Below, one piece after another: positions 4,897-58,935 of a DNA stretch of 64,000 nucleotides. Under the pieces are notes generated by a model. That model worked only from the letters and a program-made list of their open reading frames with translations. It ran no database searches and was not told the origin of the DNA. Both the position numbers and the translations under genes were made by a program. The stretch is from Pseudodesulfovibrio portus (lineage in GTDB: Bacteria; Desulfobacterota; Desulfovibrionia; Desulfovibrionales; Desulfovibrionaceae): assembly GCF_026000375.1 (NCBI RefSeq), contig NZ_AP026708.1, positions 684,501 to 748,500 on the forward strand. Direction: 5' to 3'. Every line of letters begins with the position of its first letter. The stretch's first letter is position 1.

Positions 4897-5790
4897 ATGG
4901 CCGTTTTCGAGACCGACATAACCGAATACCCGCTCATCTCACGGGGCAAGGTCCGCGATATCTACGACATCGACGAGAACACCCTGCTCCTGGTGACCAC
5001 GGACCGCATCTCCGCCTTCGACGTGGTCATGCCCGATCCCATTGCGGACAAGGGCAAGGTGCTCAACCAGATCACCCTGTTCTGGATGGACATGATGAAG
5101 GACCTGGTGCCCAACCACATCATCGCCACCGACGTGGACGACTACCCCGAGCCGCTGCGCAAGTACAAGGACCAGCTCCAGGACCGTTCCGTCCTGGCCC
5201 GCAAGGCCAAGCCCCTGCCCATCGAGTGCATCGTGCGCGGCTTCATCACCGGCTCCGGCTGGTCCGACTACCTCAAGACCGGCGAAGTCTGCGGCCACAA
5301 GCTGCCCGAGGGGCTCAGGGAATCCGAGATGCTGGAGAAGCCGCTGTTCACGCCGTCCACCAAGGCCGACCTGGGGCTGCACGACGAGAACATCACCCTT
5401 GACGCCGCCGCCGACCTCATCGGCGAGGACATGATGCGCAAGGTGGAGAAGCTGACCATCGACATCTACACCCGCGCCCGCGACTACGCCAAGAAACGCG
5501 GCATCCTCATCGCGGACACCAAATTCGAGTTCGGCACCATCGACGGCGAATTGATCTTCATCGACGAGGCCCTGACCCCGGACTCCTCCCGGTTCTGGCC
5601 CGAAGAGGGATTCGAGCCCGGCAAGTCGCAACCCAGCTTCGACAAGCAGTATTTCCGCGACTGGCTCGTGGCCATAGGCTTCAACAAGCAGCCCCCGGCC
5701 CCCAATGTCCCGGCGGACATCGCCGAGCAGACCCGGGCCAAATACCTGGAAGCCTACAAGCTGCTGACCGGCGAAGACCTCAAAATTTAA
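4897..5790 (+). CDS. purC: Phosphoribosylaminoimidazole-succinocarboxamide synthase (SAICAR synthetase)
   Basis: PurC joins aspartate to CAIR with ATP in de novo purine synthesis. The product is 297 residues and collinear with the family from the N-terminus (YPLISRGKVRDIYDID, then TTDRISAFDVVMPDPI). It has the central IECIVRGFITGSGW motif and the C-terminal DEALTPDSSRFW motif that binds the nucleotide and substrate. A good GAGGGAGA ribosome site sits before the ATG. It follows hisD closely and ends before a 450-nt gap that holds a hairpin element and a small selenoprotein candidate. Confidence 0.97.
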   Translation: MAVFETDITEYPLISRGKVRDIYDIDENTLLLVTTDRISAFDVVMPDPIADKGKVLNQITLFWMDMMKDLVPNHIIATDVDDYPEPLRKYKDQLQDRSVLARKAKPLPIECIVRGFITGSGWSDYLKTGEVCGHKLPEGLRESEMLEKPLFTPSTKADLGLHDENITLDAAADLIGEDMMRKVEKLTIDIYTRARDYAKKRGILIADTKFEFGTIDGELIFIDEALTPDSSRFWPEEGFEPGKSQPSFDKQYFRDWLVAIGFNKQPPAPNVPADIAEQTRAKYLEAYKLLTGEDLKI

Positions 5791-5816: not shown

Positions 5817-5937
5817 GGCTGTTCAGATAGTGCCGGATGCTGGGCGCAAGGGTGAATTCTCCCGCAGCGTATTCATGCGATACGTGAGGAGAGAATTCAG
5901 CCGCAGCAACGACGCAGACGGCGCTGCATGGACAGCC
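5817..5937. repeat. Dispersed nested-hairpin element, copy 2
   Basis: Outer arms GGCTGT (5817-5822) and ACAGCC (5932-5937) extend as an imperfect stem. Inside are box TGCTGGGCGCAAG (about 5838-5850), an inner stem TGAATTCTC (5853-5861) with GAGAATTCA (5891-5899), a central GCGTAT...ATACG, and box CGCAGCAACGACGCA (5902-5916). Both boxes match copy 1 almost exactly, while the inner stem differs but stays complementary. That pattern indicates selection for structure. Confidence 0.8.
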
Positions 5938-5950
5938 GGGAGAAGAAGAA

Positions 5951-6103
5951 ATGCCCGAATGGTTGCAACTGATATGTCTGGTCATCCTGGGCCTGGCCAT
6001 CGGCCGGGTCATCAGGGGCAAGTTCGGTGCCGGAGGCTGAGGCCCCGGCAAGGATTCCTGCGGCTGGACGCCGCCGGACAAGGACGATAAGAACAAGGAC
6101 TGA
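5951..6103 (+). CDS. Candidate small membrane selenoprotein (in-frame TGA read as selenocysteine)
   Basis: Seen: an ATG at 5951 with a GGGAGA ribosome site opens 29 codons, then TGA (6038-6040), then 20 more codons to a second TGA (6101-6103). The first part is one hydrophobic helix (LQLICLVILGLAIGRVI) followed by basic and Gly residues. If TGA is Sec, the junction reads GAGGUGPGKDSCGW and a very polar tail ends in DKDDKNKD. Codons after the TGA keep the GC-rich third position of this genome (18 of 20), as expected of coding sequence. Known: Sec insertion needs SelA, SelB and a downstream SECIS; selA and selB are in this window. Inferred: a 50-residue single-pass membrane protein with Sec at residue 30 and a nearby Cys36, recalling the Gly-rich Sec tails of eukaryotic SelK/SelS. 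Without recoding it would be an odd 29-residue membrane peptide. Function unknown. Confidence 0.62.
6045..6077 (+). promoter_or_regulatory. Candidate bacterial SECIS stem-loop
   Basis: Stem CCGGC (6045-6049) with GCCGG (6073-6077), a two-A bulge, GG with CC, a 2x2 internal loop, UCC (6056-6058) with GGA (6066-6068), and a 7-nt apical loop UGCGGCU starting at 6059. The loop begins 18 nt after the in-frame TGA and has G among its first two bases. This fits the general bacterial SECIS rules as I recall them (upper stem, apical G, loop about 16-37 nt from UGA). Folded by eye only. Confidence 0.5.
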
Positions 6104-6243: not shown

Positions 6244-6534
6244 ATGGCAAACAATTACGAGACGCTCGTGCTTCTCTCTCCCGAGTTGGCCGAGGAAGAC
6301 AGGAAAGGTATCCTGGACAACCTCACCGGCATCGTGGACCGTGAAGGCGGCAAGATGGTTGAGACCGACGACTGGGGCATGCGCCAGCTGGCCTACCCCG
6401 TCGAAAAGCAGACCCGCGGTTACTACGTCCGCCTGGTGTTCGAAGCCCCCGGCGCGCTGGTTGCTGAACTGGAACGCAACATCCGCATCACCGACGGTAT
6501 CTTCAAGTTCATGACCGTCAAACTGGCTGCCTAG
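6244..6534 (+). CDS. rpsF: 30S ribosomal protein bS6
   Basis: bS6 binds bS18 and the central domain of 16S rRNA in the small subunit platform. The product is 96 residues and starts [11 protein letters not shown], with the typical [14 protein letters not shown] centre. ATG 6244 follows AAGGAG; a TTG two codons earlier is in frame but too close to it. First gene of the conserved rpsF-rpsR-rplI-dnaB order, 11 nt before rpsR. Confidence 0.97.
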
Positions 6535-21837: not shown

Positions 21838-21935
21838 TCCGACAGAGGGAAGCCGGACGGCGGTTGCGCTGAGAACCCCGTCAGGTCCGAAAGGAAGCAG
21901 CGGTATCGGTTGCTGCCGGGTGTCCGGTTTCCACT
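21838..21935 (+). ncRNA. ffs: Signal recognition particle RNA (4.5S, small bacterial type)
   Basis: Contains the nearly invariant SRP helix 8 signature GTCAGGTCCGAAAGGAAGCA at 21880-21899, the Ffh binding site with its GAAA-type tetraloop neighbourhood. Flanks pair as expected (GCCGGAC near 21852 with GTCCGGT near 21922) to form the long hairpin. A promoter-like pair lies upstream and a strong terminator directly downstream. The 5' end is estimated from the promoter, so ends are approximate by several nucleotides. Confidence 0.93.
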
Positions 21936-21936
21936 C

Positions 21937-21967
21937 AAAGGCGCGTTCACAAGTGAACGCGCCTTTT
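21937..21967 (+). terminator. Terminator of the SRP RNA gene
   Basis: 14-bp perfect stem (21937-21950 with 21953-21966), 2-nt loop and a T run. Confidence 0.92.
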
Positions 21968-52466: not shown

Positions 52467-54374
52467 TCAAGACCGTTTGCGGAGACGGCGGACGTCGCCC
52501 ACGCGGACCGTGAGCTTCTCCTTGTCGAAATATTCCAGAACCGGAATGAGATACTTGCGCGACAACCCCGTCAGATCCTTGAAGTCGGGTGCCGACATCT
52601 CCTCCTTTTCCTCGAAAAAGGCCAGCACCTTCTGCTTGATCCCGTCCAGGGCCGCACACTGGTAATACATGTCGCCGGACACGCGCACGATCTCGCCCTG
52701 GTCCTGCAACACCCGGAACACGCCGGACGCGGCCTTGAAGTCCATGCCCAGCGACGCGAGCACGTCCTTGAGGTTGGGAGGCGTGGTTCCGCCCTCCCGG
52801 TACGCGGCCTGAATGATCTCGCGCACCTTTTCCTGGTCCGAGGCCAGGGAGACCTTGTGGTCCTTGAGCTTGATCACTTCCTGCTCGGCCACCACGTCGC
52901 CCTTTTTGAGCAGCTTTTCCAGGACATGATGGAAGAGCTTGGGCGGCAGTCCGCGTCCCCACGACGAGGCCAGTTCGCCCCGCTGCACGCCGGGCTTCAT
53001 GGAATCCTTGCGGTGGAAATCGGCCAGAAACTCCAGCAGGCCGTCGGCCAGGGACTCCACGAGCTCGCCGCCCGCATAACGCCGGGTCTCCTTGTCGAAG
53101 AGCACCGCCTTCTGCTGGCCGCCGAGCACGCCCAGGGTCTTTTCCAGCCCCTTGGACTCCAGGTTGGTCATGGTCAGCAGTTCGGCGAAATCAACGCCGT
53201 CCGGCCCGGCCAGTTCCAGCTGGGTGGCGGCCACGACCTCCGGCCGGTCGTCGGCCAGGAGCTTCATCTGCTCCACCCTGTCCGAAAACCGTTTGACCTT
53301 GTGCCCCACCGGGCCGACGATCCTGCCTCCGGCAAACGCCCGCAGCGGCGAGAAGGACCGGAGCACGATGCGGTCATCGTACACCCCGGCCAGGGGCTCG
53401 GTGAACCGGGCCTGGCAGATGGCGGTCTCGCCCGGCTTGAGTTCGTCCCGGTCGAGGAGATGGATGCGGGCCAGCACTTCGCGCGCGCCGTGATGAAAAT
53501 GGATTTCCTTGCGATGCTTGAGGGGCAGGTGCGAGGATTCGAGCACGGTCAGCTCGATGTCCCAGACGTTCGTGGGGAACAGTGTTCCGGGCCGGGCCAG
53601 CACGTCGCCGCGCCGGATATCGTCCACTTCCAGCCCGGCCAGGTTCACGGCGGTCCGCCGCCCTGCCTGGGCCGTGTCCACGGTCTCGCCGTGGGATTGC
53701 AGCCCGCGCACCTTGGACCCGACCCCGCCGGGATACAGGGTCACGTCGTCGCCCACGGAGATGGAGCCGGAGACCATGGTCCCGGTGACCACGGTGCCGT
53801 GGCCCTTCATGGTGAACACCCGGTCCACGGGCAGCCGGAAGAGATCGGACCGGCGCCTGGGGGAAAATTCGGAGATCAGCGTCCTGAGGGCGTCCTTGAG
53901 TTCCTCCAGGCCCGCTCCGGTGTGGGCCGACACCGGAATGACCGGGGCACCGGAGAGGAAGGTGGGCTCCAGATAGGACGCCACCTCATCCTCCACCATC
54001 TCCAGCCACTCCGCGTCCACCATGTCGGTCTTGGTCAGGGCCACCAGCCCGGTGGTCACGCCGAGCAACTGGCAGATTTCCAGGTGTTCGCGGGTCTGGG
54101 GCATGATCCCCTCGTCCGCGGCGATGACCAGGATGACGAAATCCACCCCAGCGGCCCCGGCCACCATGTTCTTGACGAATTTTTCATGACCCGGGACATC
54201 CACGATGCCCAGCCGGTCGCCCTCCCCGAGGTCGAGAAAGGCGAAGCCGAGCTCGATGGTGATGCCCCGCTTCTTCTCCTCGGAAAGGCGGTCGCAGTCG
54301 ATGCCGGTGAGCGCCTTGATGAGCGTGGTCTTGCCGTGGTCGATATGTCCGGCGGTCCCCATGATGACGGGCAT
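52467..54374 (-). CDS. selB: Selenocysteine-specific elongation factor
   Basis: SelB carries Sec-tRNA-Sec to the ribosome and binds the SECIS hairpin of the mRNA. 635 residues: GTPase with G1 [14 protein letters not shown]2 [16 protein letters not shown]3 [12 protein letters not shown] and G4 TKTDMVD. EF-Tu-like domains II and III follow ([22 protein letters not shown]). A C-terminal array of winged helices from about 380 onward binds SECIS RNA ([22 protein letters not shown] at WH2; [22 protein letters not shown] at WH4). With selA in the same window it shows that the cell decodes UGA as Sec. selC is not in this window. Confidence 0.96.
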
Positions 54375-57528: not shown

Positions 57529-58935
57529 TTATGAGGCCGACGCGGACACGGCCTGTTCCAGGGCATCCGCCACCAGTTTGAGTTCCGTGGAATCCAGGGT
57601 GCGCGGGTCCAGGAGGAATTCCTCGTCCTCGATGCGCGCCACCAGCGGCGGGTCGGTCTTCAGGAGGGCCTCCCGAAGCTCGCCCGCAGAAATGTTCTTC
57701 ACGGCCAGGGCCACCACGGTGGTGGGCAGGTCGTATTCGGGGAAGGCACCGCCGCCAACGCGGGACATGCCCTTGCGCATGGTCACTCTGGCCTTTTTGC
57801 CCAGCCGCTTGCGGATAACCTCGGCCAGACGGCGGGCCTTGGACTTGAGCGCCTCCTCGGAGGCGGTGATCATCTTGAGCGTGGGCACCTGCCGCCGGGC
57901 CTCGTCCATGTCGAGGTACGACCGCAGGGTCGCCTCCAGGGCGGCCAGGGTCATCTTGTCGATGCGCATGGCCCGGTTGACCGGATTCTTCTTGATGCGG
58001 TCGATGTATTCCCTGCGGCCCACGATGATGCCCGCCTGGGGGCCTCCGAGGACCTTGTCCCCGGAAAAGGATACCACATCCGCTCCCTGGGCCACCACCT
58101 GCTGGACCGTGGGTTCGCCGAGCAGCCCCTCCCCTTCCAGGGCATACAGGGAGCCGCTGCCAAGGTCCTCGATGACCGGCAGGTTGTACCTGTCGCCCAG
58201 CGCACGCATCTCGGCCAGGCTGACTTCCTTGGTAAAGCCGACGACCCGGAAATTGGAGGTGTGGACCCGCATGAGCGCGCCCGTTTCGTCGCCTATGGCG
58301 TTCTCGTAGTCGTGCACATGGGTCCGGTTGGTGGCCCCGACCTCGCGCAGCACCGCGCCGGACTTGGTCATGACGTCCGGGATGCGGAACGAACCGCCGA
58401 TCTCGACGAGCTGCCCGCGCGACACGATGACTTCCCTGCCCCGCGCCAGGGTCTCCAGCATAATGAACACGGCGGCGGCATTGTTGTTGACGACCATGGC
58501 CGCCTCGGCCCCGGTGATGTCGCAGAGGATTTTCTCCACATGGGAATAGCGGCTGCCCCGCTGCCCGGTGGACAGGTCGAACTCGCAGTTGGAGTAATGG
58601 CCGCACGCCTCGGCCACGGCCTCGATGGCGGACTTGGACAGCAGCGAACGGCCCAAGTTGGTATGAATGACCACGCCGGTGCCGTTGAGCACCCGCCTGA
58701 AATGAGGGCGGGCCCCGACCCTGGCAAAGGCCGCCAGCCGGGGCAGCAAGGCTTCCAGCTTGAGCTCGTCCGGCTCGGCGACGACGCCGGACCGGATCTC
58801 CTCGCGGCATATGTCGAAAAATTCGTTGACCAATTGCTTGATCAAGGGCCTCGGCAAGGATTGCATGTCCTTGACCGATTCAAGCGCGGACAGAGCGGAG
58901 TCCACGGAGGGCAGGTGCCTGAACAACGTACTCAT
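57529..58935 (-). CDS. selA: L-seryl-tRNA(Sec) selenium transferase
   Basis: SelA converts Ser-tRNA-Sec to Sec-tRNA-Sec with selenophosphate, using PLP in a homodecamer. 468 residues: N-terminal tRNA-binding helices, RRVLNGTGVVIHTNLGRSLLS, EFDLSTGQRGSRYSHVE, VVNNNAAAVFIML, and PLP Lys294 in SFSGDKVLGGPQAG, matching E. coli Lys295. Start at 58935; upstream in-frame sequence overlaps folC. Organised folC-selA-M18 with 13-nt gaps. Confidence 0.97.
   Translation of the reverse strand: MSTLFRHLPSVDSALSALESVKDMQSLPRPLIKQLVNEFFDICREEIRSGVVAEPDELKLEALLPRLAAFARVGARPHFRRVLNGTGVVIHTNLGRSLLSKSAIEAVAEACGHYSNCEFDLSTGQRGSRYSHVEKILCDITGAEAAMVVNNNAAAVFIMLETLARGREVIVSRGQLVEIGGSFRIPDVMTKSGAVLREVGATNRTHVHDYENAIGDETGALMRVHTSNFRVVGFTKEVSLAEMRALGDRYNLPVIEDLGSGSLYALEGEGLLGEPTVQQVVAQGADVVSFSGDKVLGGPQAGIIVGRREYIDRIKKNPVNRAMRIDKMTLAALEATLRSYLDMDEARRQVPTLKMITASEEALKSKARRLAEVIRKRLGKKARVTMRKGMSRVGGGAFPEYDLPTTVVALAVKNISAGELREALLKTDPPLVARIEDEEFLLDPRTLDSTELKLVADALEQAVSASAS

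Follow-up and report, generated by a model that had tools for sequence, protein, structure and literature searches.

An open reading frame between purC and rpsF in Pseudodesulfovibrio portus meets a TGA after 29 residues, and beyond it the same frame continues for another 20 codons. Does this TGA end a very short peptide, or is it read as selenocysteine (Sec) within a longer protein? An initial annotation of the window (the whole stretch of 64,000 nucleotides that was analysed) had favoured the latter and proposed a new small membrane selenoprotein. The gene is called selX here for convenience, and the features of its locus are as follows:

4897..5790, + strand: purC, upstream neighbour (ORF list and neighbour comparison)
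5938..5942, + strand: ribosome site GGGAG, 8 nt 5' of the ATG (read from the sequence)
5951..6103, + strand: selX, predicted selenoprotein gene, 50 residues and a closing TGA (translation; an in-frame TGA at the corresponding place in homologues)
5957..6022, + strand: predicted single transmembrane helix, residues 3-24 (single-sequence AlphaFold2 model and hydropathy)
6038..6040, + strand: UGA predicted to be read as selenocysteine, residue 30 (codon usage at this column in homologous loci)
6056..6078, + strand: probable bacterial SECIS hairpin, UCC-U-GCGGC-UGGAC-GCCGC-C-GGA (folding and conservation; the extension outside 6060-6074 from folding only)
6059..6061, + strand: Cys codon, residue 37, putative partner of Sec (position of the first Cys in family members)
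6244..6534, + strand: rpsF, downstream neighbour (ORF list and neighbour comparison)

The selX frame, its homologues and the in-frame TGA

Translation reproduced the annotated frame in every coordinate and residue: 29 residues, TGA at 6038-6040, 20 further residues and a final TGA at 6101-6103. A recount from the sequence found G or C ending 18 of the 20 codons after the in-frame TGA, the third-position bias that had been reported, and the ribosome site described as good is indeed present as GGGAG, with GGAG or GGAGG at this place in many relatives. The proposed single transmembrane helix was also borne out. The single-sequence AlphaFold2 model has a helix at residues 3-24 and is unstructured beyond (mean pLDDT 67.5, pTM 0.32), and a hydropathy above 1.6, which fits a membrane helix, was found in 99% of 174 members of the family. 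The mean charge in these 174 members is -0.6 over the first 6 residues and +2.1 over the last 12 before Sec, which by the positive-inside rule would place the N-terminus outside, the C-terminus inside and Sec on the cytosolic side. The tail is predicted to be disordered and has no thioredoxin fold. After its single helix, the family commonly shows (L/F)-P-(K/R)-x-G-x-x-(G/T/S)-U-x(4-7)-C, and beyond it a tail that is charged; in the window's own genus, G-x-x-R/K replaces the P of this pattern. Of the 174 members, 164 have their first Cys after Sec at +5 to +8 and 3 have it at another distance; 7 have none within 14 residues, and four of these have no Cys anywhere in the tail. The member from genome G018 (L026) has no later tail Cys and carries one directly before Sec (CU).

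Among 60 relatives, 52 gave a match at E<=1, and since every match with E<0.004 (40 of 40 rows) has a TGA inside, the observation at this locus is more than chance. A profile of 36 rows matched 152 of the 297 genomes of the host's order at E<=0.01, spread over 41 of its 55 genera; 120 of these genomes remained at E<=1e-4 (own count). In the phylum, the same profile matched 146 of 395 genomes. A wider profile of 51 rows raised the phylum figure to 179/395 at E<=0.01 (118 of 246 genera) and 169/395 at E<=1e-4 (own count), with a TGA inside every match among those listed (E<=2.3e-10). Judged from these profile searches, the predicted family extends across the order and into a large part of the phylum. 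The matches lacking an internal stop were read individually. In the order there were four, namely a Cys homologue (G223), a FeoB_associated protein (G227) and two with the TGA just beyond the alignment (G214 and G154), and all 12 in the phylum have a TGA just beyond the aligned part. Another 14 weak matches without a stop comprised, by eye, nine FeoB_associated-like proteins, three chance matches, one TGA-bearing member (G327) and G223 again. Some profile matches above E 1e-4 are therefore false, and the genome counts at E<=0.01 include some of these. A scan of genome contigs returned two near relatives and one Bradyrhizobium match (L033), which was read as chance, and a plasmid search with one member, Sec entered as Cys, gave nothing useful. 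Two tandem copies, both with TGA, occur in G023 (L042), and a tandem second copy, giving two TGA-bearing matches, in G020 (L144).

For the codon at the Sec column, the translations of 187 loci were inspected and nine were left out: two duplicates (L031 and L032), one cut locus (L030), one FeoB_associated protein (L139) and five judged non-homologous by eye (L033, L044, L045, L049 and L050); the set also excludes L147, L158 and the partly repeated loci L052-L064. The remaining 178 loci consist of 177 with TGA and one, L109, with a Cys codon, and neither TAA nor TAG occurs at this column. Removal of identical sequences left 174 TGA-bearing loci, so that TGA stands at the column in 174 of 175 distinct sequences. 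Because the script takes the first TGA within a match, this count rests on reading the translations by eye. The final stops of the 174 loci are mixed (TAG 63, TGA 59 and TAA 52). L109 belongs to G223, which is of the same genus (g43) as the TGA-bearing G226, and it is the only homologue that supplies a Sec/Cys pair. In 27 loci of the window's genus, pN/pS was 0.50 before the TGA and 0.53 after it; the corresponding values were 0.92 for the tail read in frame +1 and 0.89 for the 51 nt past the final stop. The search for homologues with U or Cys at residue 30, suggested along with the annotation, thus gave a conserved in-frame TGA with conservation continuing past it.

The standard genetic code would give a protein of 29 residues stopping at the TGA, with the downstream likeness due to chance, to RNA only or to another gene. 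The frame-specific constraint after the TGA led us to reject this reading, and the near-exclusive use of TGA at the column, with a Cys codon in one locus, also speaks against it. In addition, the distance between the tail Cys and the hairpin loop varies, which argues that the Cys is not merely part of an RNA element. We regard the 29-residue protein as extremely improbable; that selX is a selenoprotein is, from comparison of the sequences, nearly certain.

The downstream hairpin and the selenocysteine machinery

The rules for bacterial SECIS (bSECIS) elements given in section 5 of PMC13188914 ask for a loop of 3-9 nt with a G in its first two positions, a stem of at least 4 bp, a location 16-37 nt after the UGA and an energy of -7.5 or lower. 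When these were applied strictly, with uninterrupted stems only, they held for the window locus, as for 130 of the 174 loci, and failed in the other 44; the controls were 10% of synonymous versions, 33/174 upstream windows and 10/72 regions after the ordinary TGA stops of neighbouring genes. The bacterial SECIS check that had been suggested for this locus thus came out in favour of a SECIS-type hairpin after the UGA. For segments of 40 nt, folding z averaged -0.91 at the UGA and -1.34 at UGA+10 over the 174 distinct loci; in the other segments tested it lay between +0.16 and -0.70. Compared with synonymous-codon versions, the tail had a mean z of -1.59 (two upstream controls, -0.38 and -0.37) and folded better at p<0.05 in 39% of loci (12% and 9% in the upstream controls). 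The tail of the window locus itself gave a z of about -3.0, and none of 200 synonymous versions folded as well.

Covariation was examined in loci grouped by the Sec-Cys distance, which makes the alignment independent of pairing. At distance 5 (43 loci), the five highest-scoring of 903 places all belong to one stem (score 10.3; mean 0.12, sd 1.91), which shows 3-5 pair types per pair. The signal was weaker at distance 7 (50 loci), where the best two places form one stem a base off the distance-5 position (7.1, sd 2.04), and mixed at distance 6 (64 loci). The Cys homologue L109 has lost the hairpin: its tail gave a z of 0.49 against synonymous versions, whereas that of its TGA-bearing congener gave -2.36 and that of the window locus, in this comparison, -2.96. 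These comparisons of folded sequences together show that the predicted downstream hairpin is under selection across the selX family.

Which hairpin would serve the window locus was considered separately. The stem-loop at 6045-6077 named in the initial annotation does fold, being the minimum-energy structure of the short segment (-15.1 in a 48-nt cut, where the core 6060-6074 reaches -9.0). Judged on the window by itself, this stem-loop was no better than shuffled sequences in three cuts (z 0.26, 0.10 and -0.86), and among 38 relatives that share the spacing of this locus and its motif C-x-W-x-P, all ten of its pairs are kept in one, with 45% kept on average. In the same 38 relatives, all five pairs of 6060-6064/6070-6074 are kept in 19, with a mean of 72%, and 43 of the 67 loci with C-x-W-x-P, which form the window's group, have an intact stem 6060-6074. 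The stem 6045-6077 was therefore set aside as the likelier SECIS, and the hairpin at 6056-6078, whose loop UGGAC (6065-6069) begins 24 nt past the UGA, is probably the SECIS of this locus. The two wobble pairs of 6060-6074 matched no better than expected from independent columns in the window's group (0.73 vs 0.72 and 0.94 vs 0.92), so this stem is conserved there without support from covariation.

The genes needed for decoding UGA as Sec are present in the host. As the annotation had noted, selA and selB both lie in the window, and their identity was confirmed by family models:

52479..54368, - strand: selB, selenocysteine elongation factor (TIGR00475, E 1.2e-119)
57553..58923, - strand: selA, selenocysteine synthase (TIGR00474, E 2.3e-184)

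A tRNA-Sec lies elsewhere in the host genome (C1:1206343-1206432), which completes the machinery of selA, selB and tRNA-Sec. In the order, tRNA-Sec scored above the family cut-off in 266 of 297 genomes and, by own reading, was clear (E<1e-13) in 254; selX matches were found in 148 of these 254 and in 4 of the 43 others, all four of which are 81-89% complete. Since whole genera are without the family, this co-occurrence leans on kinship. In the phylum, 160 of 339 genomes with tRNA-Sec and 19 of 56 without it (read by hand) had a selX match. On rechecking the 19, two gave a weak tRNA-Sec, and SelB was found in 18 of the 18 tested (G374 was left out). In G073 and G101, SelB was present and tRNA-Sec was not found, and the order genome G291 (81% complete) has a selX match with neither tRNA-Sec nor SelB found. 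The co-occurrence with tRNA-Sec is thus weak evidence, and the phylum figures say little.

Genomic neighbourhood and possible roles of selX

The spacer between the purC stop and the selX ATG is 160 nt in the window and mostly 8-11 nt in relatives with an adjacent purC; the spacer of the window contains an imperfect palindrome at 5853-5899 (arms 5853-5861 and 5891-5899). The promoter scan found no promoter-like site and two terminator-like sites, both inside rpsF. Elsewhere in the window, a bacterial small SRP RNA (RF00169) lies at 21845-21938. Among the 178 loci, many of which reach only 1.5-2.5 kb to each side, selX lies directly between purC and rpsF in 47, next to purC only in 8, next to rpsF only in 7 and next to neither in 116. 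The neighbours purC/rpsF, fabI, DegT-like, Sir2/TatD-like, histidine kinase, dacA and CcdA/DsbD are each confined to certain lineages. Pfam verified FeoB, two FeoB_associated proteins and a single representative of each of three further types, the zinc ribbon, DsbD_TM and enoyl reductase; the other names are presumptive.

In 20 of the 174 loci (for example L150, L185, L124 and L152), a gene for an FmdB-type zinc-ribbon protein lies no more than 250 nt from selX and runs in the same direction; the search model was built from seven of those 20. These neighbours come from nine families, some of which have the gene before selX and others after it. PF09723 located the zinc-ribbon gene beside selX in 10 of 10 such genomes searched and gave only 2 to 12 matches per genome in 11 genomes, including three in the host (G000), none of them near selX; chance adjacency should therefore be rare, if kinship between the genomes is left aside. 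A CcdA/DsbD-type membrane gene is near selX in five loci (L164, L181, L186, L156 and L152), in four of them on the opposite strand. A FeoB gene (PF02421; L230, 5093-7084) lies 0.8 kb from selX in G576, likewise on the opposite strand, with a close relative in G361, and in these two genomes it is on the other side of selX from the CcdA/DsbD-type gene.

The coding tail, the retained TGA, the selection on the hairpin across the family and the Sec machinery together argue for a real selenoprotein gene, as had been proposed. In the full explanation, ribosomes would start at 5951, one transmembrane helix would be inserted with the N-terminus out and the C-terminus in, the UGA at 6038-6040 would be decoded by SelB and tRNA-Sec with the aid of the downstream hairpin, probably 6056-6078, and translation would finish at 6101. 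Sec, just past the membrane on its cytosolic side, would form a reversible selenenylsulfide with a Cys 5-8 residues on in the flexible charged tail, and the protein would be a selenol/thiol redox protein tethered to the membrane that acts on a partner there or on a small oxidant, possibly joined by the FmdB-type zinc-ribbon protein. We put the probability of this explanation in outline, a selenoprotein gene decoded via SelB, tRNA-Sec and the hairpin, at about 0.88, as judged from sequence data. The redox function taken by itself is tentative; it is suggested by the first Cys standing at +5 to +8 in most members, along with the CU of G018, the distribution of charge and the recurrent zinc-ribbon neighbour. 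Counting against the explanation are the loci that fail the strict hairpin rules, the members with no Cys close after Sec, the disordered tail lacking a thioredoxin fold, the change of neighbours from lineage to lineage and the matches in genomes where tRNA-Sec was not found.

Several other roles were weighed against a redox protein. As selX sits directly between purC and rpsF in 47 loci, its frame might be a selenium-sensing leader in which UGA decoding tunes the next gene (rpsF here) and the peptide is secondary; the tail is however constrained at the protein level and most loci have neither gene adjacent (those being of other families, and some loci short), which makes such a leader very unlikely. 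The small size of a single-helix protein and the retention of Sec in nearly all members inspected would also suit a small subunit accessory to some respiratory or transport complex in the membrane of anaerobes, with Sec as a ligand or electron relay. No complex gene is constant beside selX in the inspected loci, and we consider a subunit of this kind unlikely, though less so than a role in metal handling, in which Sec and Cys would bind a soft metal beside a transporter.

FeoB-associated Cys-rich membrane proteins have a metal role suggested by their name, and their layout of one helix, a positive flank, a Gly-rich hinge and a tail Cys is like that of selX. The zinc-ribbon neighbour and the nearby FeoB genes point in the same direction, as do weak matches of PF12669 to 8 of 36 members (best E 0.005) and 2 of 51 (best E 0.039). 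Against this, FeoB-like matches occur in 2 of 178 loci only, most covering 1.5-2.5 kb per side, and one Sec with mostly one Cys would offer few ligands. Furthermore, genuine FeoB_associated proteins score 38-40 bits (E 5e-10 and 2e-9), and proteins of this type are separate genes in the selX-bearing genomes G144, G222, G121, G227 and G071 (L206 of G144 and L139 of G227 confirmed by Pfam; L207, L208 and L219 by eye). Membership of selX in the PF12669 family was rejected, its matches being weak beside the scores of genuine members, and metal handling appears rather improbable.

Comparison with known selenoproteins and membrane proteins

The selX family is absent from the libraries and the inventory that were searched. 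With Sec entered as Cys, no model of NCBIfam release 20.0 fitted (best E 0.025 with 36 members, streptosactin; best E 0.0053 with 51 members, PP0621_fam, matched by one member), and no Pfam model fits the family in scans of the 36 and the 51 members. PF04602 matched 11 of the 51 weakly (E 0.0049), as far as can be told because of its helix. A PDB sequence search found no relative (the best match, a helix of EmbB, had E 0.25), and no title or abstract opening naming such a protein was seen among the matches listed from open-licence literature. None of the 119 selenoprotein families (2026) in Table 1 of PMC13188914, many of whose entries cite Haft and Tolstoy 2025, is described like selX when compared by name, domain and motif. 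The initial statement that no bacterial family of this kind was known therefore agrees with Pfam, NCBIfam and that table.

The bacterial selenoproteins listed in PMC13188914 share with selX an in-frame UGA, a downstream hairpin of the bSECIS type and a Sec with a nearby Cys. By name, domain and motif, none of the table's families is a single-pass membrane protein of about 50 residues with (G/T/S)-U-x(4-7)-C, and for selX a single Cys homologue was found. In Fujita et al. 2007 (PMC1914089), GrdA and a Geobacter cytochrome candidate are selenoproteins without Cys homologues, both being proteins different from selX; such selenoproteins were called scarce there, and the stop-codon screen was limited to frames of more than 80 codons, to which selX would be invisible.

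We lean slightly towards regarding selX as a membrane microprotein found across the phylum, with an almost obligatory Sec, that is a bacterial counterpart of SelK/SelS by convergence. If this is true, the rule that nearly every selenoprotein has Cys homologues owes something to the way searches are done, and bacterial selenoproteomes may contain a layer of short Sec-only proteins that has been overlooked. Selenoprotein finders depend on Cys homologues and on longer frames; selX, with matches in nearly half of the phylum genomes at E<=0.01, has one Cys case among the loci inspected. The family would be a ready training case for finders of short Sec-only proteins, and it makes testable why cells retain Sec directly beneath the membrane, in a tail that lacks structure.

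Among membrane proteins, the FeoB-associated Cys-rich proteins (PF12669) are similarly tiny, with one N-terminal helix and a Gly/Cys tail; unlike selX, their tails are of the GCGC type without Sec. The eukaryotic SelK and SelS have one helix at the N-terminus and, in the cytosol, a disordered tail containing Sec, and the likeness to them that had been pointed out holds for architecture and does not extend to Pfam, where their families are absent among the 12 matched at E<=1 by the 51 members, in a library that presumably includes SelK and SelS models. Set beside SelK/SelS, selX is alike in architecture, far shorter, and carries its predicted SECIS inside the coding region.
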